DNA from: Anaerolineae bacterium
Lineage (GTDB): Bacteria > Chloroflexota > Anaerolineae > Aggregatilineales > Phototrophicaceae
DNA length: 64,000 nucleotides
Direction of reading: 5' to 3'
Assembly (NCBI GenBank): GCA_022822305.1
Contig: JAJEBY010000016.1
Location: 248,001-312,000, forward strand
The translations under genes and the position numbers were made by a program. Positions 39,282 through 51,030 of the stretch are shown here, piece after piece (position 1 is the first letter of the stretch; each line of letters opens with the position of its first letter). The notes beneath the pieces are model-generated. The model had not been told where the DNA came from and ran no database searches. It worked only from the letters and a program-made list of their open reading frames with translations.

Positions 39282-40238
39282 TTACTTCCCCTGCAGCAAC
39301 TGTCGCGTCGCGGCAATATCGCGCTTGATTTGGCCGACCAAGTCATCAAGCCCGTCGAACTTTCGCTCCGGTCGCAAGCGCTCTTCAAACATCACCTCGA
39401 GGCGCTCGCCGTAAATGTCACGGTCAAAATCGAGCAGGTGCGCTTCAAGCGAAAGCTGAGCGTCATCAAATGTGGGCCGGGTGCCGATGTTTATCGCTGC
39501 CATGAAACGCGCGCCGCCCAATAGCGCCCAGCCCGCGTAGACCCCATTTGCCGGCACAACCTGCTCATCCCAAAGCTCTAGATTAGCCGTCGGTACGCCA
39601 ATTGTACGCCCGCGCTGCTGCCCGTGTATGACCGGACCAGACAGTGCATAGGCTCGTCCCAATTGACCCTTGGCCGCCCGAATATCTCCACATGTGAGCA
39701 ATTCGCGAATCCGTGAACTGCTGAAGGCAGCCCCGCCACTTCCGTCGACAATCGGTTCGACGCGCGTAACGCCAAAGCCCGCGGCCTTGCCCAGTTCCCG
39801 CAAATGATCGACCGTGCCTTCGCGCTGATAACCCAGGGCGAAATCGGAACCCACCCATAAATCTACGAGGTCCAGCCGCGCGACCAGCCGCTCGACAAAA
39901 TCGCGCGCCGTCAGTCGCCGTGTTTCTTCGTCAAACGAAAGCGTGATAACCAAATCGACGCCAAGCGCCAGCAAGAGATCGGCGCGTTGCTCGGGCGTGG
40001 TCAGATAGTAGCGCGTCGGTCTTTTGTGCAATGTCTTGTCCGGATGCGGATGAAAGGTGAGCACAACCGCCCGTCGTCCGCCGGCGCGAGCGCGCTCGAC
40101 CAGGCGTTCAACCAAGGCGCGGTGGCCGCGATGGACGCCATCAAAGACGCCGATGGTGAGCGCTGTTTCTTTATCGGGGCTCGCGTCGCGCAGGCGCCGC
40201 AGATGTCGATTCATGTGCTTTGCTTCGAAACGTCTCAT
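39282..40238 (-). CDS. ribF: RibF, bifunctional riboflavin kinase/FAD synthetase
   Basis: Makes FMN and then FAD from riboflavin. The N-terminal nucleotidyltransferase domain shows TIGVFDGVHRGHRALV and a SSSRIRELL segment. The C-terminal riboflavin kinase domain has the GRTIGVPTANLE motif (PTAN binds Mg-ATP) and YAGWALLGGARFMAAINIGT. 318 residues, full length. ATG 40238 is used; ATG 40214 is possible. It is the last gene of the nusA-infB operon, 81 bases after truB. Confidence 0.96.
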   Translation of the reverse strand: MRRFEAKHMNRHLRRLRDASPDKETALTIGVFDGVHRGHRALVERLVERARAGGRRAVVLTFHPHPDKTLHKRPTRYYLTTPEQRADLLLALGVDLVITLSFDEETRRLTARDFVERLVARLDLVDLWVGSDFALGYQREGTVDHLRELGKAAGFGVTRVEPIVDGSGGAAFSSSRIRELLTCGDIRAAKGQLGRAYALSGPVIHGQQRGRTIGVPTANLELWDEQVVPANGVYAGWALLGGARFMAAINIGTRPTFDDAQLSLEAHLLDFDRDIYGERLEVMFEERLRPERKFDGLDDLVGQIKRDIAATRQLLQGK

Positions 40239-40319
40239 GTTTCCAGGCCGGGCACTTGGATATTGGGCGAGGGCGCCGTTCCGTCTGCCGCGGATGAATC
40301 GACGGCAATTGTATCAGGC

Positions 40320-41204
40320 TCAGTCGCAAAAGACTTTACGCGGTTTCCAGAGTTCGGCATCTTGTACCAGAACGGCGACCAGACGCTTACGGTGATCGAA
40401 GGCGAATATTGGCACAGTTTTGGCATCCAATTGGCGGGGAATGGCGCGCCCGTGGCCGATCATGGCAATCTCTGACTCGCTTAAACTCACACAGCATTGA
40501 TCCGCCAGGGCAGCATGCGGCGGCACAATTTCATCCAGCCAGGTCTCGTCTTCAAGCACGCGTTCCAAACTGATGCTGTCGTCATGCGTGAAGCTGCCGC
40601 TGGCGGTCCGGCAAAGCGCGGATAGATAAGCGCCCACGCCCAAGGACTGCCCCAGGTCATGCGCCAGGCTGCGAATATACGTGCCAGCGCCGCAGCGAAT
40701 CTCCAGCCCCAGGTTTGGATTGTCCCAATCCAGAATGTCGATGGCGTCAATGCGAACGGGTCGCGGAGCGCGCTCAATCGCTTGGTTCTGCCGCGCCAAT
40801 TCGTAGAGCTTGCGACCGCCAACTTTGACGGCGCTGTACATCGGCGGGATTTGCTGCAGCTCACCGATGAATTCGCTCAAATGAGCCTTCACGTCAGACA
40901 GCTGAATATGCTCGGCGTCGCATCGGCGCAAGATGTCGCCCTCAGCATCGTAGGTGGAGGTGGATACGCCCAGGGTCACTCGCGCCCGGTAGGTTTTCGC
41001 GCCCGGCATGATGTATTCGCTCAATCGCGTGGCTTTGCCGAGGCACAGCACCAGGACGCCTGTCGCCAGCGGATCGAGCGTGCCGGCATGACCAACTTTC
41101 TTTTGGCCGGTCAGCGCGCGATAGCGACGGCGCACTTTCGCGACCACATCGTGGCTGGTCATATTCAGCGGCTTGTCCAGATTGAGGAAGCCCGAATACT
41201 GCAT
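40320..41204 (-). CDS. truB: TruB, tRNA pseudouridine-55 synthase
   Basis: Isomerises U55 of tRNAs. The 294-residue product starts SGFLNLDKPLNMTSHDVV and carries the catalytic motif GHAGTLDPLATGVLVL (Asp nucleophile). It also has KTYRARVTLGVSTSTYDAEGD, the MYSAVKVGGRKLYELAR substrate loop, RCGAGTYIRSLAHDLG and a C-terminal PUA-like segment. ATG 41204 begins one base after the nrnA stop and matches the family N-terminus. ATG 41228 would overlap nrnA by 23 bases. Confidence 0.96.
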   Translation of the reverse strand: MQYSGFLNLDKPLNMTSHDVVAKVRRRYRALTGQKKVGHAGTLDPLATGVLVLCLGKATRLSEYIMPGAKTYRARVTLGVSTSTYDAEGDILRRCDAEHIQLSDVKAHLSEFIGELQQIPPMYSAVKVGGRKLYELARQNQAIERAPRPVRIDAIDILDWDNPNLGLEIRCGAGTYIRSLAHDLGQSLGVGAYLSALCRTASGSFTHDDSISLERVLEDETWLDEIVPPHAALADQCCVSLSESEIAMIGHGRAIPRQLDAKTVPIFAFDHRKRLVAVLVQDAELWKPRKVFCD

Positions 41205-41205
41205 C

Positions 41206-42201
41206 TCAGTCAAGCGCTGCGGGTCCATTCTCCACGACCTGCCGAGCCAGAGGCAAAACGCGATCGCGAACCTCAAGCAGCGACCCCGCAACGGTGCAGC
41301 CGGAGGCTTGCTTGTGCCCGCCGCCGCCGAGTTGGTAGGCCAGGCTCGCCACATCGTAGCCTGGCTCGGAGCGAAAACCGACCTCGATTTGGTTGGCGCG
41401 CGTCTCTTTGAACACCACCGACACCTTGGCTTGATCGACATTGACCAGATGGTTGACGAGGCCGCCGTCGCTCATGGCGTCTACGCCGGAACGGGCGTAA
41501 TCTTTCTGCGTGATGTTTGCGCTGATGAGGCCCGCGTCTAAAGTTACCGACGGCAAGACCAGCTTCCAAAGTTCAATGTCTTGATAGGGACGCCGGTTGA
41601 GAGTCCTGGCCATGATTTCTGGCAGCGGCGCGCCGAGTTTCATCAGGGCCTGGGCGATCTCCAGCGTGCGGGCATTTGTCGCATGAATGCGAAATCCTTG
41701 CGTATCGGTGACGAGCCCGGTCAAGAGCGCGTAGGCTGCGTCGTACTCAAGGTCAATGTCCATGAACGAGAGCAAATCGAAAGCGACCTCAGTCGCGGAC
41801 ACAGCGCCCGGCACGATGACCTGGATATCGCCATAGTGTGTGTTGGTGGCGTGGTGATCCAGATTGATGACTGTCTTGCAATGATCGAGCCCATAAGCGC
41901 CAGCGATGCCAATACGCTCGATATCGCTGGAATCGACAGCGATCAATAGATCAAACTCGCCTTGGGTAATCTGGGATGCAATTGATGCGGATTGTGGCAG
42001 GAATGCGAGGTCGGGAGGGACGCCGCCGTCGATGGCCCCGGAGACGTTTTTGCCCAGCTCGCGAAGGCTTGCGCCCAAGCCAAGCAGCGTGCCGACCGCG
42101 TCCCCGTCGGGAAAGATATGCGAAACGATCAGGATAGTATCGGCGGAACGAATGGCCGCCGCCGCTTGTCGAAACTGTGGTTCAGCTGTCGCGTCGGGCA
42201 T
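41206..42201 (-). CDS. nrnA: NrnA-like bifunctional oligoribonuclease/pAp phosphatase (DHH family)
   Basis: DHH/DHHA1 phosphoesterase that degrades nanoRNA and dephosphorylates 3'-phosphoadenosine 5'-phosphate. It shows SHIFPDGDAVGTLLGLG (motif I), IAVDSSDIERIG (II), INLDHHATNTHYGD (III), a fourth motif in LLTGLVTDTQGF and the DHHA1 loop LGGGGHKQASGC. 331 residues from ATG 42201, which has GAAG upstream and overlaps the end of rbfA by 20 bases. pAp is also the by-product of PAPS-dependent sulfotransferases such as the one at 28963, a loose functional link. Confidence 0.94.
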   Translation of the reverse strand: MPDATAEPQFRQAAAAIRSADTILIVSHIFPDGDAVGTLLGLGASLRELGKNVSGAIDGGVPPDLAFLPQSASIASQITQGEFDLLIAVDSSDIERIGIAGAYGLDHCKTVINLDHHATNTHYGDIQVIVPGAVSATEVAFDLLSFMDIDLEYDAAYALLTGLVTDTQGFRIHATNARTLEIAQALMKLGAPLPEIMARTLNRRPYQDIELWKLVLPSVTLDAGLISANITQKDYARSGVDAMSDGGLVNHLVNVDQAKVSVVFKETRANQIEVGFRSEPGYDVASLAYQLGGGGHKQASGCTVAGSLLEVRDRVLPLARQVVENGPAALD

Positions 42202-42556
42202 CGTCTTCGGCTTCAACCGGTATCTCCAGTTTGGAAATGATCTGGTTAATGCGTTCAGCCTGGTCCAGCGTGTAATCCCAAAAGAAAAACAATTCAGGCG
42301 TCGTGCGCAAACGGATGCGCTTGGCCAGTTGGCGCCGCAAGAATCCTTTGGCGCGCTGCAATCCTCGCATCACATCTTGTTCGCGGCTTTCATCCCCCAG
42401 CGCGCTGACGTAGATCTTGGCAACGACTAACTCCGGATCAAGCTCTACTTCAGTTACGGTTACGCCGCGCAGCCGCGGATCCGCGACCTCGCGCAGCAGC
42501 AGCGCGCTCAGAATCTGGTGGATTCGGTCGCTCATTCGTCCTTGCTTGATCGCCAT
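42182..42556 (-). CDS. rbfA: RbfA, ribosome-binding factor A
   Basis: Small KH-like protein assisting 16S rRNA 5'-end maturation and cold adaptation of the 30S subunit. The 124-residue product shows RMSDRIHQILSALLLREVAD, DPRLRGVTVTEVELDPEL, AKIYVSALG, and KGFLRRQLAKRIRLRTTPEL, all typical, then an acidic tail. ATG 42556 begins 14 bases after the infB stop. It overlaps nrnA at its 3' end. Confidence 0.95.
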   Translation of the reverse strand: MAIKQGRMSDRIHQILSALLLREVADPRLRGVTVTEVELDPELVVAKIYVSALGDESREQDVMRGLQRAKGFLRRQLAKRIRLRTTPELFFFWDYTLDQAERINQIISKLEIPVEAEDDARRDS

Positions 42557-42570
42557 GATTCGATACCAGT

Positions 42571-44382
42571 CTAGTTGACGCGCACGCGGACAAAAAACTC
42601 GATGAGGTCGCCTTCCCGAAAGTCGCTGACGCCGGCAAGGCCGATGCCGCATTCGAATCCGGAACGGACTTCCCGAACGTCATCTTGAAATCGCTTGAGC
42701 GAACTCACATCGACTTCGTCAACCGTGACTTTGTCCCCTCGCTTGACCCGCGCTTTGGCATTGCGCCGCGCTTCCCCTTCCTTGATCATGCAGCCGGCAA
42801 TGACCCCGCCGCGCGGAATCCGGAAGGTCTGTCGCACCTCGGCGACGCCGATCACCTGATTGCCGTACTTGGGATCGAGCATGCCGTGCAAAGCCAGTTC
42901 AATGTCCTCAAACAGCTTGTAAATGATATTGTATTTACGTATTTCCACGCCTTGCACATCGGCGGATGATTGCGCGGCGTTATCAACGCTGACATTGAAC
43001 CCGAGGACGACGGCGCTTGAGGCGCTGGCCAGCATCACATCGGATTCTGTGATACGTCCAACTTCCTGACGCAGCACCCGCACTTCGATACCTTCTTCAT
43101 TGCGCGCCGAGATATTCTTCAATCCGTCCGTGATGGGTTGGATGGAACCTTGTACATCAGTTTTGAGGACCACAGCCAGTTCTTTTGTCGCGCCGGCCTG
43201 GACCTGCTTAATGAAGTCTTCCAGCGTCAGCGATACCGGCGCGTGACCGCCGAAGTGACGCGCCCGTTCTTCCACTTTTCGCGCATCCGCCACGTTGCGC
43301 GCCAGCTTGTCGCTATCCACGACTTCGAACAGGACACCGGGCGCCGGCGGTGAATCCAAACCGAGGACGGCGACCGGCGTGGATGGCAGCGCAACCGTCA
43401 CTGGATTGCCCGCCGAATCGAACATGGCTTTGATCCTGCCGTAGGACGTACCGGCGACGATGGCGTCGCCCCGTTTCATGGTGCCGTTCATGACCAGCAA
43501 TGTGGTCATGGTCCCGCGGTTTCTGTCTACTTCGGATTCAATCACCGTGCCCCGCAAGGCGCCTTTAGGATTGGCGACAATGTGGTTCTCGTCGGCGACG
43601 AGAATCAGCGCTTCCAGCAGGTCGTCAATGCCATCCCCGGAAAGCGAATTGACCGGAATCATCATGGTCGTGCCGTCCCAATCGTCCGGAATCAGCTCGA
43701 GTTCCGCCAGCTGCTGTTTGACCAGGTCTGGATTGGCGTTGTTTCTGTCCACTTTTGTAATGGCTACGACCAAGGGCACATTGGCGGCCTGGGCGTGATC
43801 GAGCGCTTCGCGGGTGGTAGGCATGACGCCATCGTCCGCCGCGACTACCAGAATCGCGATATCCGCGCCTTGGGCGCCGCGCGCGCGCATGGCTGTGAAG
43901 GCTTCGTGACCCGGCGTATCGAGGAAGGTCAAGGTTTGGCCATCGTGTTGCGCTTGATAGGCGCCGATATGCTGCGTGATGCCGCCGGCTTCGCCTTCGG
44001 CTACCGCAGTCTTGCGGATGGTATCGAGCAGCGTGGTCTTTCCGTGATCGACATGTCCCAGGATGGTGATGATGGGCGGTCGCGCGACCAGAGAAGCGGC
44101 GGCCTCGCCCTCATACATGACGCTGCGTTGTTCTTCGCGCTGCTCCGCGCGTTTTTCTTCTTCTTCAGCGGCGGCCACAGCCGTGGCGGAATGCGCGGTG
44201 AATCCCATCTCTTCAACGACGATGGCCGCCGTATCAAAATCTATCTGCTGGCTGATGGACGCCATGATGCCGTTGGAGATCAGACGCTTCATGACGTCAA
44301 TTGGACTGGAATCAGTCAATTCCGCCAATTCACGTACCGTCAGATAGTCTGGTACGAGGACTTCTTTTGGTGCTTCTGCCAT
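42571..44382 (-). CDS. infB: Translation initiation factor IF-2 (short form)
   Basis: GTPase that positions fMet-tRNA on the 30S subunit. At 603 residues it is a short IF-2: one N-terminal domain ([20 protein letters not shown]) and a brief charged linker precede the GTPase. G motifs are [29 protein letters not shown] and [10 protein letters not shown]. The downstream domains are complete, including the C2 fMet-binding end ([39 protein letters not shown]). ATG 44382 has a perfect AAGGAGG ribosome-binding site. Confidence 0.97.
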
Positions 44383-44454
44383 TCCTGCCTCCTTCAGTCG
44401 GGGGGCTGTGACCGAGGCAGGATTTGCGGTCCTGCCGTGGTTAGCTGCGCTGGA

Positions 44455-44715
44455 TCATGACGGTTTCATTTGCCGCAAGAGATTGCGGTCATGATCATTC
44501 AAACTCCTGCGCAACGCGTTATCCAGTGTCGAGCGCGCTGCCGCCAATTCCCAGCATTTTTGCTTTCGACACAAATAGGCGCCGCGCCCATTCATCTTGC
44601 CCGTCTCATCAATCCGCAAGCTGTCGGCGGCGAAAACCAGCCTGACGAGATTACGCTTGTCGGTCTTCTCCCGACATACCACACAGCTGCGTTGCGGACG
44701 ATGCTTGCTCGCCAT
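44455..44715 (-). CDS. ylxR: YlxR (DUF448) RNA-binding protein
   Basis: 86-residue YlxR-family protein, usual between nusA and infB and reported to bind RNA or modulate RNase P in some bacteria. It shows RPQRSCVVCREKTDKRNLVRLV with the C-x-x-C pair, the GRGAYLCRKQKCWELA motif with two more cysteines, and a basic C-terminal helix. ATG 44715 is 24 bases after nusA. Position and motifs agree fully. Confidence 0.95.
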   Translation of the reverse strand: MASKHRPQRSCVVCREKTDKRNLVRLVFAADSLRIDETGKMNGRGAYLCRKQKCWELAAARSTLDNALRRSLNDHDRNLLRQMKPS

Positions 44716-44739: not shown

Positions 44740-46746
44740 CTAGTAGTCGTAGTCTTCCCAGGTCTCTTCGTCCCAGGAACCGCGGCGACCCTTGCGCCGA
44801 CGCTTGGCGATAACTTCTCCGCTTTTCTCATCCAATACGAGCTGCCGCCTGCGCTGGCGATCCTTGCGCCGCTGCTCCTTGCCTTTGCTGCGATCCAATT
44901 CGAAGCCGGATTCGTCTTCGTCTTCGACGAATTCTGCCGTGCGCGCGGGCGCTTCTCCCGCTGCCGGCGTTTCTCGCACTTGCTCGGGAATCGGCATGGC
45001 TCCGGCGACGCCGCCTTCAACCATAACTTGCCCGGCGGCCACCAACTCTTCGCTGACGATTGGCTGCCCAAAGGCATCCAACAAGACTTCTTCTTCCTCG
45101 GCTTCGTCCGGAACCGCGTCGTCGGCTGCTTCAGCCACAACGTCCTCAGCAACAGCCTCGACTTCGGCGCCGGCTTCGGCGGCTGGCTCCTCTTCCAGGA
45201 CCTCGTCGCCTTCCTCGATGGATCTCGCTTCTTTCAGCAAGGCTTCGATATCCGCGGCCATCACGGTATCCAGCGCCGACTGCACGTCCGCCATTGGTTC
45301 GCCTTCAAGCGCTGACAGCTTTCGCGCGACTACCTCTTCCTCTACCAGGCAGGCGAGCATCACCTCACCGACATTCTCGTAGGGTTCCAGTATGTCGAGG
45401 GATTCTTGGGATATCGCCAAGACATCAAGCGGCAATTCGAACAGCTCGGGGCTCAGCGTGGACCGCACGGCTTCTCGTTCGCGCAGGTAAATCTCGCGCG
45501 CTTCGTTGCGTTGTACTTGCAGCAATTGTTCGACGATTTCGGCGAGCCGGCCCAGCGACTTGTATTCTTCCGGCATCACCGTCAATTCCATGCGCTTCTT
45601 TTCCATGATGCGCAGGGCCTCGGCGACGAGATCGGCATGTTTTTCCGTCAGCACTTCCAAGGGCGGCACGTCGAGATTTTCCAGCGCGCCTTGAACGGTC
45701 TCGGTCATACTCTTGATATCGATGCGCCAGCCGGTCAGCTTGGCCGCCAGCCGCGCGTTCTGGCCTTCGCGGCCAATGGCCAGCGACAATTGATCATCCG
45801 GCACGATGACAACCGCCGTCTTGCCATCGATGGGGTCATCGTCCAGGTAGACGCCGGTAACGCGCGCCGGACTCAAGGCCTTGGAGATAAAGGCCACGGC
45901 ATCGCTGTTCCACTCGATGACGTCAATCTTTTCGTTGTGGAGTTCTTTGACGATGTTTTGAATGCGGATGCCGCGCATGCCCACGCAGGCGCCGACCGGG
46001 TCTATGCCGTCTTGCAGCGCGGCCACGGCGACTTTGGAACGATGCCCGGCCTCGCGTGCGATATTCTTGATCTCCACCTGCCCGTTATAGATTTCCGGCA
46101 CTTCATATTCCAGGAGACGCCGCAGCATATTGCGATGACCGCGGCTGACCAGAATCTGCGGCCCGCGATTGCTCTTCTTGACTTCCATCACGTAAACGCG
46201 GATTTTTTCGTGCGTGCGATAGCGTTCGCCCGGGATCTGTTGTTGGCGGATCATATCGGCTTCCGCGCGTCCCAGGCTCAGCGTCACTTGCCTGGAGTTT
46301 ACGCTTTGCACTGTGCCGGTAACAAGATCGCCCTCGCGGTTGATGAATTCGTCATATAGGGCATTGCGCTCAGCTTCGCGTATTTTTTGCAGGATGACCT
46401 GTTTGGCTGTTTGCGCCGCGATACGACCGAAACTCTTGGTGGTATGTTCAACTTGCACCATCACTACATCGTGAAGATCGGCTTCCGGATCAAAGAAGCG
46501 CGCAACCTCTAAGGTCACTTCGGTGGCGTCGGTGAATACTTCGTCCACGACCTCTTTTTCAACAAAGACTTTGGCTCGGCCAGTATCCGGATCGATTTGC
46601 GCTTCGATGGCTTGCGCATTGCTGGCGCCGGTGTCCTTTCGATAGGCGGAAACCAGAGCGCTTTCCAAGGCTTCCAGAACAACGTCTTCGGGCAAGGCGC
46701 GCATCTGCGCGATCTCGTGGAAGGCTATTTGCAGTTCATTCGACAT
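44740..46746 (-). CDS. nusA: NusA, transcription termination/antitermination factor with long charged tail
   Basis: RNA-polymerase-associated factor controlling pausing, termination and antitermination. The core is standard: N-terminal RNAP-binding domain (residues 1-125), S1 domain (GDLVTGTVQSVNSRQVTLSL, about 135-200), and KH1/KH2 (about 230-345: GACVGMRGIRIQNIVKEL, LAIGREGQNARLAAKLTGW). The protein is 668 residues, against about 350-500 for most relatives. A helical extension is followed by a very acidic region (DEVLEEEPAAEAGAEVEA) and a strongly basic stretch (KGKEQRRKDRQRRRQLV, AKRRRKGRRG) ending in acidic and aromatic residues. GGAGTGA ribosome-binding site. First gene of the operon; rimP, its usual upstream partner, is absent. 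Confidence 0.96.
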   Translation of the reverse strand: MSNELQIAFHEIAQMRALPEDVVLEALESALVSAYRKDTGASNAQAIEAQIDPDTGRAKVFVEKEVVDEVFTDATEVTLEVARFFDPEADLHDVVMVQVEHTTKSFGRIAAQTAKQVILQKIREAERNALYDEFINREGDLVTGTVQSVNSRQVTLSLGRAEADMIRQQQIPGERYRTHEKIRVYVMEVKKSNRGPQILVSRGHRNMLRRLLEYEVPEIYNGQVEIKNIAREAGHRSKVAVAALQDGIDPVGACVGMRGIRIQNIVKELHNEKIDVIEWNSDAVAFISKALSPARVTGVYLDDDPIDGKTAVVIVPDDQLSLAIGREGQNARLAAKLTGWRIDIKSMTETVQGALENLDVPPLEVLTEKHADLVAEALRIMEKKRMELTVMPEEYKSLGRLAEIVEQLLQVQRNEAREIYLREREAVRSTLSPELFELPLDVLAISQESLDILEPYENVGEVMLACLVEEEVVARKLSALEGEPMADVQSALDTVMAADIEALLKEARSIEEGDEVLEEEPAAEAGAEVEAVAEDVVAEAADDAVPDEAEEEEVLLDAFGQPIVSEELVAAGQVMVEGGVAGAMPIPEQVRETPAAGEAPARTAEFVEDEDESGFELDRSKGKEQRRKDRQRRRQLVLDEKSGEVIAKRRRKGRRGSWDEETWEDYDY

Positions 46747-46871
46747 AATCTGTCACTCCGAAAGTCGAACTTTTCCGTTCTTGGTTCGAGCTTCTTCTCA
46801 GCCGCAGCGGAGGCAAATGGCTCTGGCCCCGTTTGGCCTTGGGCAATAATCACGAATCGCAATATAAAACG

Positions 46872-46894
46872 AAAAGTGGGGGCTGCCCACTTTT
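46872..46894 (-). terminator. Hairpin with terminator features in the nusA leader
   Basis: A perfect 9-bp stem (46872-46880 with 46886-46894) and 5-base loop, flanked on the minus strand by A-runs before and TTTTCGTTTT after it. It lies downstream of the nusA promoter and upstream of the nusA start. Every nusA transcript from that promoter must therefore pass it, as must readthrough from the operon ending at 46996. It may be that operon's terminator, a nusA leader attenuator, or both. On the plus strand it would also have a T6 tail, but no plus-strand gene needs it. Confidence 0.6.
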
Positions 46895-46919
46895 TTCGCG
46901 AAAACTACCATGCGCAATC

Positions 46920-46948
46920 ATTGTATCATCACGCCACAATGGCGTCAA
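46920..46948 (-). promoter_or_regulatory. Strong promoter of the nusA-infB operon
   Basis: Minus strand: TTGACG (46948-46943), exactly 17 bases, TACAAT (46925-46920), preceded by TGA giving an extended -10. Transcription would begin near 46913, about 167 bases before nusA, with the hairpin at 46894-46872 in the first 45 bases of the leader. Confidence 0.72.
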
Positions 46949-46995: not shown

Positions 46996-49900
46996 TCAGC
47001 CTGCAGGAATCGCGCGGGAAGGAAAGGGCGGAAACTTGAAGACTTTGCCGGCAACTGAGTCGCTGATGTAAACGAATCCGTCGCGGTCAACGGCGATTCC
47101 GGCGATTGCCTGGAATTGGCCATTGGCGCTGATTGTCCCGTCTTGGCCGAAGGCGCCAACACAATCTCCACTAGGGTGATACACCAACACACGATTGCTA
47201 TCCGGGTCGGTGACATAAAGCAAGTTGCGTTCTTCGTCAATGGCAAGGTAGGGTCGATTGAAGGTGGAATCGTACCAGCCGCGCACGCGGAAGTCCTGCA
47301 CGTGGTTGCCCGCCGTATCGAATACGGACACGCGTCGATTCCAGGTATCGGCCACAAACAGCCGTCCATCGGAATGCAGCGCGAGACCGCTCGGTTCGTC
47401 TAGTTCGCCCGGCCCGCTGCCGCCGCCGCCGATGTCAAATCGATACACCGCTTCGCCATCTTGAATCTGATAGGTCCGGATCCGCTTGTTGCCGGTGTCG
47501 GAGACAAAAATCATGCCGTCGCCGCTGACGGCAACATCGCGCGGACCCCAGAATCCGTCCAGCGGGTCTCGCGGCGCGTCGAAGCCGAATTCGCCCGGGC
47601 TGCCCCATTGCGTCAGCAAGTTGCCGGCAGCGTCTATGTGACGGATCTGATAGTTCCAGGTGTCAACGACCAGCATGTCGCCGTTGGCGAGCGCAGTCAC
47701 GCTGTTGGGTCGAACAAAGTTGAGCAGCCCGTCCCCGCCGATAGTCTGGATTTCCTGACCGTCGTCCGTGAAGACGCGAATTTGATGTCTGCTTTCGTCA
47801 GCGACATAAATCAATCCGTTGGCGGCGCTGACGCCAATAGGCTGCGCCAGGGACTGGTCTGCCGTTGAAAACTCAACCAGCGGGGATAGTTGCTGCCAGT
47901 TGGAGGCGCAGAGATTGATCTCGACCGGCATTTCGCTGGCGACTGCGCCCTCGCCCAAACCATGCTCCCAGATCTGAGCGGCGAAATCTTTGCGCACGTA
48001 AACATGCATTCGATCGGAAACGGGCCAGTTGGTCAGCGAGAAGTCGCGATTGGTCGCCTCGCCGTAGCGATCGTAATCGCGCGACCACCAGATATCGAAC
48101 ATGCCGCGGCGAATGTCGGCGGCGTTGTAATTGTCGGGCGAGAAATCGAGGGCGTTCAAAATGCGCTCCGGCGTCAGATTGAAGTATTCTTGCATCGGCC
48201 ACCACATCCGCGTGTAGTCGCGGCGGAAATATCGATCTTCCAGGATTGGTTCAACGTCGCCGCGGTGACCGGAACCCACGACGACGAAAATGGCGTCGTC
48301 GAGATTTTGAACGGTCGGATTGGCGCCGACAAATGACGCGGCCGTAAAGTCACGGAAGTACCAACTGTAGGGCCATGATACTTCATCGTCATAAGCGAAC
48401 TTCAGGTCCTTGCCATCGGTAAGGCGCAGGCTCATCTCGTTGATGTCGTCCAATACCCATTTGACCGCCGGCGCCGCATGGGCATAGACCAGGAATTCAG
48501 TCGCCAAATCGTAATTGACGAAGGACGCCAGCCATGCCGCGCGCAAGGTGAGCATACTGAGCAAGCTGAAAACGGCGACGGCGACCAGGCGCCGCAGGTG
48601 AATCCAGCCCACTTGCCGAGCGATGCGCGCGAGCAAATAACCCAGGACCAACGCCATCAGCAACGATGCCAGCCATTCGTAGGTGCGTTCGAGCTGCGCC
48701 TGGCTGAGTCCGACGAAAGGCGGATCGCCGGTCAGGTAGGCGCCGATCACGTGAGCGAGGCTGATGAGGAAAACCGGCATGATCAGCAGCGCCAGCCAGC
48801 CGCGCGAAAGAAAGCGCGCTTTATCGATTCTTGAGAATATGCCGCCGAAATACCAAGCCGTCAGCAGGATCATCGGCGTGGTCAGATGTGTGCCCAGCCA
48901 GGGCATTTTCTCGCCGGCCAGCGAATAGCCCACCAGGTTGAGGACTGCCCACCACGCCAGCAGCAGCAGGAATGGCAGCCGTCGCAGATAGCCGTCGTCT
49001 TGTTCGCCGGCGACGGCGTCAATTTGCCGCGTCCGGTAGCTTGTGGATATTGCCGCGTCTGCGCTTTGCACCGTGATAGAAGCGCTGCTGGAATCGTCTC
49101 CTGGCCGGAGCAATATCTCCGTTGCAGCGTTGCCGGTATCTTCAATTCCGTCGGATTCCGAAAGTGCCGCGTCTTCGCGACTGTCGCTTGATTCCTCCGG
49201 CGTCTGTTCGCCTTCGGCTTCCAGCTGATCAAGGCGACGGCGCCGCATTTTCCAGAATCCTGTGACTCCGGCGAACATGGCGGCGACGCTGCCGATGATG
49301 GGCAGATACTCGTATATCGGCAGAATGATCAGCAAATAATAGTATTGTGGCTGGCTGCCTCGGCGCACGCCTTGCTGTTCCAGCCAATAGCCCAAACTGT
49401 AGACCATTCCCGAGGCCAAGCCCGCGATATTGGTGAAAACCGTCGTGAAGAAGAATGCGAACAAGACATGGAAGATTCCGGAAGCAATCAGCCAGCGTCT
49501 CCAATTCCAGGTCAGGCCGACAACCAGCATCAGAGCGAATAGCGGGACAAATGCGGAGACGCCCAATAGAAAGCGGCCGATTTCTTCGTGACCGCCCAGG
49601 CCGGGCAAACCGGCGATTAGATTGTATAGACCGTTCGGCAGCGATTGGGCGAGCGCGCTGATTTCGGCGCTGCCGCCGCCCATCAAGCGCGGGAAGACTG
49701 CCGTCGTCCAAGGCAAGATCAGCGTGCCCATCAGCACAATGAAGTCGAACTCTGGAAATTGATTGAGAAAGCCCCAGATACCGGGACGCTGTTTGCCGTC
49801 TACGGCAAAAGTGTCGGCTCTCGCGGCACGGCGCGCGTCTCTGATTAACAGGGGCGCGCCGATGATCAGCAGCAGCCATAGCGGCAGGACAGGCAGCCAG

Positions 49901-50988
49901 TTGATATTCTGGCCGGGTGGCGCGGATGCCGTCGCCGCGTCTGCGTCCTCCGGCGCCAGCGGCTGCGCGGTTTCTGTCACGCTGGGCACATGCGACAGTT
50001 CTTCGAGGAACAGCAGACCCGCGGCGACGAGCAATGCGATCAGAAAGATCAAGAGTATCTCACGCCTCGGCAATCGGTTCAAGCGGTCTCGGAACACGTA
50101 GAGCGCTGCGCTCGCTGGAATGCAGAGCCCCGCCAGCAGCGTGAGCAGCGTCCAGGACAAGAAACTTGAACGATGCAAATCGCTCAAGTCGCTCCAGGGC
50201 GTGCCGTGTCCCGGAACAATTTCGGCCGGCACGATGTCGACGATGATGTACATGCCCAGGGTCATGACGCCGCCGAGCAGGATGCCAAGCATCAGCGTGT
50301 ACAGCAGTGGCTTGCCGCGCCAGTCGTAGCGATGCTGGGCCAGACGAATCAGGAAATAGATGCAGAGAAAACTGCCGAAAATGGCGATGTAAATGAAGGC
50401 CGTTTCTTTCGATCCGAGGTTGAGAATCAGCGCCGCGGCGAAGACATACAGCCAAAAGCCCCGCCGCCGATATTTGGGCGGGCCGTTGAGATACATCAGG
50501 ATGCAATGCGCCATGATCATGCCGAAAAGGATGGAGGGCGTGTCGTGGCGAATGTAGCGATTGTAATAGAGCAGCAGCGGCGAACTCAATATCATCAGCG
50601 AGGCCAGCAACGCGCCCCATTTGCCCAGCCAGCGGCGCCAGAGCAGGGGGAACATCACCATCAGCACACCCAAGACAGTGGTGTACAAGCGGCCGGAGAA
50701 ATCGCCGTCGCCGAAGAGGAAAAACGAAAGCGCTGTCGCATGGAAGAGCACAGGCCCGTGCATCAGGGGCGTGTGAGTGAAATTGCCCTCGTTGTACAAA
50801 TTGTAGGAAAAGCGCGTGTGCAGGCTTTCGTCGTGGCTCATCACGCGCTGATCGAGCATATAGAAGCGCGTGAAGAGGGCGAGCAGCAAGATCGCCACAT
50901 AGGCGGCGAATTCCCAATTGATTTTGATGCGATGGGTTATGATGCGGTTGAGCGCGTTTTCTTCGATTTGATTGGGCGTGGTCAACAT
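46996..50988 (-). CDS. Agl23-like GT-C membrane protein fused to an NHL beta-propeller
   Basis: A 1330-residue protein of the 'flippase activity-associated Agl23' (TIGR03663) type. The N-terminal 900 residues are polytopic, starting with a GT-C-like first loop (LDQRVMSHDESLHTRFSYNL) and PLMHGPVLFHATALSFFLFG. A charged cytosolic linker rich in Glu/Ser divides the spans around residues 620-680. From about residue 1045 to the end lie six NHL-type repeats (IGVSAANGLIYVADESRHQI, DMLVVDTWNYQIR, IFVSDTGNKRIR, RLFVADTWNRRVSVF, LLYVTDPDSNRVLVY, FVYISDSVAGKVFKF), predicting a six-bladed propeller outside the membrane. The family is linked to glycoprotein or surface-glycan assembly in archaea and Chloroflexota; its reaction is not established. 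ATG 50988. Last gene of the glycan cluster. Confidence 0.88.
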   Translation of the reverse strand: MLTTPNQIEENALNRIITHRIKINWEFAAYVAILLLALFTRFYMLDQRVMSHDESLHTRFSYNLYNEGNFTHTPLMHGPVLFHATALSFFLFGDGDFSGRLYTTVLGVLMVMFPLLWRRWLGKWGALLASLMILSSPLLLYYNRYIRHDTPSILFGMIMAHCILMYLNGPPKYRRRGFWLYVFAAALILNLGSKETAFIYIAIFGSFLCIYFLIRLAQHRYDWRGKPLLYTLMLGILLGGVMTLGMYIIVDIVPAEIVPGHGTPWSDLSDLHRSSFLSWTLLTLLAGLCIPASAALYVFRDRLNRLPRREILLIFLIALLVAAGLLFLEELSHVPSVTETAQPLAPEDADAATASAPPGQNINWLPVLPLWLLLIIGAPLLIRDARRAARADTFAVDGKQRPGIWGFLNQFPEFDFIVLMGTLILPWTTAVFPRLMGGGSAEISALAQSLPNGLYNLIAGLPGLGGHEEIGRFLLGVSAFVPLFALMLVVGLTWNWRRWLIASGIFHVLFAFFFTTVFTNIAGLASGMVYSLGYWLEQQGVRRGSQPQYYYLLIILPIYEYLPIIGSVAAMFAGVTGFWKMRRRRLDQLEAEGEQTPEESSDSREDAALSESDGIEDTGNAATEILLRPGDDSSSASITVQSADAAISTSYRTRQIDAVAGEQDDGYLRRLPFLLLLAWWAVLNLVGYSLAGEKMPWLGTHLTTPMILLTAWYFGGIFSRIDKARFLSRGWLALLIMPVFLISLAHVIGAYLTGDPPFVGLSQAQLERTYEWLASLLMALVLGYLLARIARQVGWIHLRRLVAVAVFSLLSMLTLRAAWLASFVNYDLATEFLVYAHAAPAVKWVLDDINEMSLRLTDGKDLKFAYDDEVSWPYSWYFRDFTAASFVGANPTVQNLDDAIFVVVGSGHRGDVEPILEDRYFRRDYTRMWWPMQEYFNLTPERILNALDFSPDNYNAADIRRGMFDIWWSRDYDRYGEATNRDFSLTNWPVSDRMHVYVRKDFAAQIWEHGLGEGAVASEMPVEINLCASNWQQLSPLVEFSTADQSLAQPIGVSAANGLIYVADESRHQIRVFTDDGQEIQTIGGDGLLNFVRPNSVTALANGDMLVVDTWNYQIRHIDAAGNLLTQWGSPGEFGFDAPRDPLDGFWGPRDVAVSGDGMIFVSDTGNKRIRTYQIQDGEAVYRFDIGGGGSGPGELDEPSGLALHSDGRLFVADTWNRRVSVFDTAGNHVQDFRVRGWYDSTFNRPYLAIDEERNLLYVTDPDSNRVLVYHPSGDCVGAFGQDGTISANGQFQAIAGIAVDRDGFVYISDSVAGKVFKFPPFPSRAIPAG

Positions 50989-51030
50989 ATGCAAGAAGGC
51001 CTAGCGCAACGGCGAATTGTACCAAATATA

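Follow-up and report, generated by a model that had tools for sequence, protein, structure and literature searches.

A conserved hairpin in the leader of the nusA operon of Chloroflexota as a probable NusA-responsive attenuator

Introduction

Short terminator hairpins in front of nusA operons have been described in several bacterial lineages. In the survey of Naville and Gautheret (2010; PMC2965389), the passages on the rimP-leader present it as the most widespread attenuator that was found, with a stem conserved as GGGc...gCCC and with RimP or, as the best candidate, NusA proposed as the effector. For B. subtilis, the relevant section of a 2025 review (PMC12288461, citing Mondal 2016) describes NusA as autoregulated through NusA-stimulated termination in its own leader, and the same section states that a B. 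subtilis study identified no consensus for NusA-stimulated pauses. In S. agalactiae, according to the passages of PMC4448216 on the rimP-nusA operon (gbs0413-gbs0418), termination was seen by RNA-seq 31 nt after the transcription start. Suboptimal hairpins and interruptions of the U-tract are given as marks of NusA-dependent terminators in the corresponding part of PMC8060035, the criterion there being a distal interruption. The term "chloroflex" is absent from the main text of the 2010 survey, and we found no nusA leader of Chloroflexi in the open-licence literature by title, by the start of the abstract or in passages on Chloroflexi.

Anatomy of the nusA leader and its operon

The window, i.e., the whole stretch of 64,000 nt of Anaerolineae DNA analysed here, carries nusA as the first gene of an operon on the minus strand (Table 1). 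The original prediction had placed a promoter with a TG element and, close behind it and ahead of nusA, a perfect 9-bp hairpin, and we could confirm both. The -35 element TTGACG (46948-46943) and the -10 element TACAAT (46925-46920) are separated by a spacer of 17 nt and score 10/12, and the hairpin (46894-46872) follows after a gap of 25 nt, so that it ends 48 nt from the end of the -10 element and ca. 41 nt from the inferred start near 46913. It would thus lie at ca. +20 of a leader with an inferred length of ca. 167 nt. The base of the stem consists of four A-U pairs, the first four T of the U-tract double as the end of the 3' arm, and the 10 nt directly 3' of the hairpin (46871-46862) read CGTTTTATAT. 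Given this layout (TTTT-CG-TTTTATAT), the interruption of the U-tract is distal if the stem stops at CCCAC and proximal if all nine pairs form. From the hairpin it is 125 nt to nusA, the ATG of which is at 46746, while the upstream glycosyltransferase gene ends with a stop codon at 46998-46996. The protein encoded by this upstream gene (46996-50994) is large and contains both a PMT_2 glycosyltransferase domain and NHL repeats.

Table 1. Features of the nusA leader and operon in the window.
Feature	Coordinates	Strand	Basis or remark
sigma-70-type promoter of the nusA operon	46920..46948	-	TTGACG-N17-TACAAT, TG preceding the -10 element
predicted start (ca. 46913) and short pre-hairpin leader	46895..46913	-	inferred, ca. 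7 nt past the -10 element
candidate attenuator hairpin AAAAGTGGG-CAGCC-CCCACTTTT, 9 bp, perfect	46872..46894	-	sequence and conservation
interrupted U-tract TTTTCGTTTTATAT	46862..46875	-	sequence
rest of the 5' untranslated region with likely ribosome-binding site CGGAGTGA	46747..46861	-	sequence
nusA, first gene of the operon	44740..46746	-	NusA_N and KH_5 over cut-off
ylxR, infB, rbfA, DHH-family gene, truB, ribF	39282..44715	-	Pfam matches, open reading frames

The gene order nusA-ylxR-infB-rbfA-DHH-truB-ribF suggests that nusA to ribF form a single transcript. IF-2, RbfA, TruB and RibF are encoded as originally predicted, and the operon further includes ylxR and the DHH-family gene, which that account had omitted. 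We note that NusA itself (44740-46746) has a long acidic C-terminal extension with a basic tail at its end, and that in many of the more distant members of the phylum NusA aligns over only the first ca. 350 residues. Elsewhere in the genome (G000, contig C4, 60067-60912), two adjoining stretches resemble the KH region of NusA (residues ca. 209-350), each of them in an open frame for which a length of 644 aa is given.

Taken by itself, the local evidence is weak, with the hairpin only modestly above chance in the window. A scan of 2 kb gave seven terminator-like sites against 2.4 expected and two promoter-like sites against 1.0 expected. The 52-nt leader fold has a z-score of -1.79, with 13 of 200 shuffles equally good, and the z-score of -2.64 for the 194-nt fold of the whole leader is uninformative when taken alone. 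The exact hairpin motif occurs at a single site in this genome (3.67 Mb). We consider the hairpin to be real because it is conserved in relatives, as described below. A scan of the window against Rfam gave no family at the gathering threshold, and that of the leader just two chance-level matches. A riboswitch or T-box is rejected on account of this lack of an Rfam match and of the short space before the hairpin: because the hairpin begins ca. 20 nt past the inferred start, neither an aptamer nor a long antiterminator would fit in front of it.

Conservation within the order

Of 61 genomes in our sample of the order (this genome and 60 relatives), 59 have a NusA match. The original prediction had suggested comparing the nusA leaders of relatives, and in this comparison the core of the hairpin proved to be kept throughout: exact GTGGG-loop-CCCAC is present in 59 of 59 leaders, spanning the genus, the family and seven further families of the order, and each of them has five to seven T among the 8 nt past CCCAC. 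Promoters scoring at least 9/12 lie within 90 nt before the hairpin in 50 of the 59 leaders, compared to 3.6% of mononucleotide shuffles (which, here and in the phylum and cross-phylum comparisons below, preserve base composition only). The distance from the end of the -10 element to GTGGG is 21 to 45 nt over all 59 leaders and 26 to 29 nt in 40 of them; a single leader (L055) has no convincing promoter, the best site scoring 6/12.

Across an alignment of the 43 distinct rows among these 59 leaders, the five GUGGG/CCCAC pairs are invariant and the outer pairs of the stem co-vary, for example from A-U to C-G in four rows that all belong to one family (f2) and therefore possibly reflect one event. 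The covariation score was reached by none of 500 shuffles and the number of cells with a double change was matched by two of 500. Counting against the signal, 48 of 500 shuffles had at least as many pairs with a double change, and a single slid control came near the covariation score (0.124 compared to 0.130). A covariance model built from leaders of the order had a match in the same 59 of 61 genomes, by construction including its own seeds; the two genomes without a match are also those without a NusA match, and apart from antisense matches at the same sites the model gave one match elsewhere.

Some leaders carry additional structure. In family f8 (L041, L042, L044 and L046), CTAG pairs lengthen the stem and the tail is just TTGTTTAA, so that the terminator is possibly weaker or different. 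In part of the genus (L008-L019), an outer helix surrounds the hairpin and the U-tract (GTTCGC/GCGAAC; TGTCC/GGACA in L008); the outer-helix score exceeds the mean of the leader's shuffles in 27 of 34 leaders of the genus and 38 of 59 overall, and the helix is clear in the genus subset only. A hairpin masking the ribosome-binding site at the start of nusA was considered and rejected, the palindrome seen in the window being above the shuffle mean in just 20 of 34 leaders of the genus and 23 of 59 overall.

The leader across Chloroflexota and the distribution of RimP

NusA matches were found in 146 of 151 genomes sampled from the phylum, and our census covers 130 leaders of these 146 genomes, that of the window included; it omits 15 genomes in which the NusA match starts after residue 60 and one (G163) for which the region upstream of rimP alone was read, and three leaders among the 130 fall short of 300 nt. 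GTGGG-N(3-14)-CCCAC lies within 300 nt in 109 of these 130 leaders, compared to 16 of 2600 shuffles. The loop limit of 14 was picked after family f22 had been seen, and with a limit of 9 the motif is found in 102 of 130 leaders and in 2 of 1300 shuffles. Several of the other 21 leaders retain a hairpin in which both arms have changed together (ACTGGG/CCCAGT, CGCGGG/CCCGCG or ACGTGGC/GCCACGT). Promoters scoring at least 9/12 before the hairpin are found in only 33 of 101 leaders at the scale of the phylum, against 4.0% of shuffles. With strict filters, the covariance model matched before nusA in 75 of the 146 genomes and gave 10 retyped matches elsewhere, three of them at or near the same site; the retyping left aside ca. 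35 antisense rows that coincide with matched sites.

A search for RimP_N found no match in the genome of the window (94.3% complete), and as a positive control the search succeeded in 10 of 14 named genomes. In the sample of the phylum, 134 of 151 genomes gave no RimP match, and the 17 genomes with RimP_N all belong to families f19, f29, f32 and f54. As no RimP was found, the leader stands before nusA. The regions upstream of rimP have no terminator-like hairpin in 14 of 17 cases; two of them (family f29) carry GGGGCC-loop-GGCCC followed by a T-run and one more has a hairpin 355 nt upstream. It counts against the attenuator reading that in the three rimP-bearing families other than f29 the upstream regions are hairpin-less in 14 of 15 cases.

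Occurrence in other phyla

We scanned named genomes, one per species, with the pattern AGTGGGN{3,8}CCCACTYTTTTT and obtained at least 116 loci. Among the 116 matches listed, 77, from many phyla, directly precede rimP or nusA on the same strand, with the start of the gene at most 222 nt downstream; RimP is encoded at 51 of these listed sites (before NusA at 47, alone at four) and NusA only at 26. At the other 39 listed loci, five of which have less than 800 nt of downstream sequence, no rimP or nusA was identified. The first 80 loci among the matches listed had given 55 of 83 sites before rimP or nusA. The 77 listed sites before rimP or nusA come from taxa including cyanobacteria, Clostridia, delta- and alphaproteobacteria, Planctomycetota and Opitutae as well as Akkermansiaceae, Nitrospirae, Acidobacteria, Elusimicrobiota and Chloroflexi. 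Promoter-like sites are found just before the hairpin at 15 of 50 listed loci that have RimP and at 9 of 24 at which NusA comes first, compared to 7% to 8% of shuffles. The loop is most commonly closed by C...G (22 of the 77 listed rimP or nusA sites). Our scan was ascertained on GUGGG and is thus silent on the frequency of other core letters in these phyla; the E. coli leader, for one, has the form GGGC-TTTA-GGCCC.

The conservation of the GUGGG/CCCAC core extends to its exact letters, which is more than a terminator requires, and it holds in many phyla, whether rimP is present or not. One possible though doubtful explanation is that NusA, or NusA together with RNA polymerase, recognises these letters specifically on the nascent leader, which would make them an ancient and widespread cis element. 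If so, NusA would sense how much of it is present before transcription has passed the first 50 nt. That something recognises the invariant letters of the stem is a claim open to test, although no consensus for NusA-stimulated pauses emerged in the B. subtilis study mentioned above. As to use of the motif at other terminators, the genome of the window has the one exact site and the model gave one other match in 61 genomes of the order, yet at 39 of the 116 listed loci no rimP or nusA was identified.

Proposed mechanism and alternative explanations

The hairpin is best explained as a promoter-proximal attenuator of the nusA operon at which termination is strengthened by NusA, a reading that we consider probable, and it most likely corresponds to the switch already described elsewhere with which NusA restrains its own synthesis. 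RNA polymerase would start near 46913 and make ca. 20 nt before reaching the hairpin. Once the GUGGG/CCCAC hairpin and the interrupted U-tract have been transcribed, a share of complexes would release an RNA of ca. 45 to 52 nt, with NusA on the elongating polymerase promoting hairpin formation and pausing. High levels of NusA would then reduce readthrough into nusA-ylxR-infB-rbfA-DHH-truB-ribF and low levels would increase it, so that termination at ca. +45 to +52 would determine the output of the operon. Termination itself and the RNA ends at the leader are predicted from the DNA sequence. Of the NusA autoregulatory attenuator originally proposed, the leader attenuator is well supported, since the element stays with nusA while upstream genes and phyla differ, and the part of NusA is what we infer from the reports on B. 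subtilis and S. agalactiae and from the persistence of the leader in genomes in which no rimP was found. Because the leader is kept before nusA where RimP was not found, NusA is favoured over RimP as the feedback protein.

An attenuator could also respond to a sensor other than NusA (NusG, the state of ribosomes or initiation factors, or nucleotide levels) or act as a fixed basal brake, which we regard as unlikely. The passages of PMC8060035 on B. subtilis report that NusG-dependent terminators also have terminal A-U or G-U pairs and U-tract interruptions, which resembles the four A-U pairs at the base of the stem described here. However, the B. subtilis report as summarised in PMC12288461 names NusA, and the leader remains with nusA where rimP was not found.

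It is very unlikely that the hairpin is a mere terminator of the upstream glycosyltransferase gene, with the upstream promoter being minor and nusA being transcribed from a start further downstream, e.g., from TGGGCA-N17-TATATT (46889-46861). The hairpin does lie ca. 100 nt past the upstream stop codon, and this promoter-like site, which scores 9/12, overlaps it. Yet the glycosyltransferase gene is found upstream of only 31 of the 59 leaders of the order and was not found for 28, of which 22 have at least 1 kb of flanking sequence, and the hairpin is present in all of them; in 6 of these 22 relatives, the longest open reading frame reaching into the last 450 nt lies on the opposite strand (open reading frames called mechanically). 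The promoter of at least 9/12 that precedes the hairpin in 50 of the 59 leaders argues in the same direction, as do the co-variation of stem pairs as RNA and the absence of the TATAT from many leaders of the phylum, by which we also reject a second promoter inside the hairpin. The alternative in the original prediction that the hairpin simply ends transcripts of the upstream glycan cluster is thus disfavoured, since the hairpin stays while the upstream gene changes. A leader attenuator going beyond the mere end of an upstream glycan transcript is strongly supported by the conservation of the element with nusA, the variety of upstream genes and its occurrence across phyla, though the hairpin may have a double role and also stop readthrough from upstream.

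It is highly improbable that the hairpin, with no regulated termination, serves to stabilise the 5' end of the nusA mRNA or makes up the body of a small RNA, for while 5' hairpins can protect an mRNA and this one lies near the inferred 5' end, a stabiliser would need neither the T-rich tail that is kept in 59 of 59 leaders nor the invariant sequence of the stem.

Comparison with known leaders of nusA operons

The Rfam family RF01770 (rimP, 102 positions) describes a leader of the same operon and seems to model a longer, gammaproteobacterial form. It has no match in the leader of the window or in the genome that this belongs to, and none of 21 genomes tested, this one included, has a match over the gathering cut-off; two of the 21 have weak matches (E up to 1), which lie away from nusA, and 1 of 14 control genomes has a match over the cut-off. 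Because this model reported none in the 21 genomes, Rfam annotation would miss leaders of this kind.

The U-tract of the leader is interrupted, and whether this agrees with the distal interruption given for NusA-dependent terminators in the passages of PMC8060035 depends on where the stem ends. In S. agalactiae, an intrinsic terminator likewise lies close to the promoter before the nusA operon, and feedback by NusA is proposed in the respective passages of PMC4448216, but that operon encodes RimP and its terminator was shown by RNA-seq, whereas ours is known from sequence alone. NusA-stimulated intrinsic termination controls the expression of NusA itself in B. subtilis as reviewed in PMC12288461, and we suggest the same role for NusA in the present case. 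B. subtilis differs in having RimP, as our control search found, and its leader is listed with 180 nt in PMC2965389, compared to the ca. 167 nt inferred here.

In architecture, the leader matches the general rimP-leader, described in the relevant passages of PMC2965389 as a short terminator with a G-rich 5' arm, a C-rich 3' arm and a U-stretch. The GGG...CCC core and the U-stretch are present here as well (GTGGG-CAGCC-CCCAC followed by TTTTCGTTTTATAT), and the distance of 125 nt to nusA lies within the 4 to 130 nt given there between the leader and rimP-nusA-infB. The differences are that the loop is closed by c...g there and by C...C here (loop CAGCC) and that rimP is the first gene there whereas nusA comes first here and RimP was not found. 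Those leaders are described as having no visible antiterminator; the outer helix noted above is present in part of the genus studied here. The nusA-operon attenuator would extend to a phylum unnamed in the main text of the 2010 survey, and a lineage in which RimP was not detected helps to tell apart the two feedback proteins that its passages on the rimP-leader propose.
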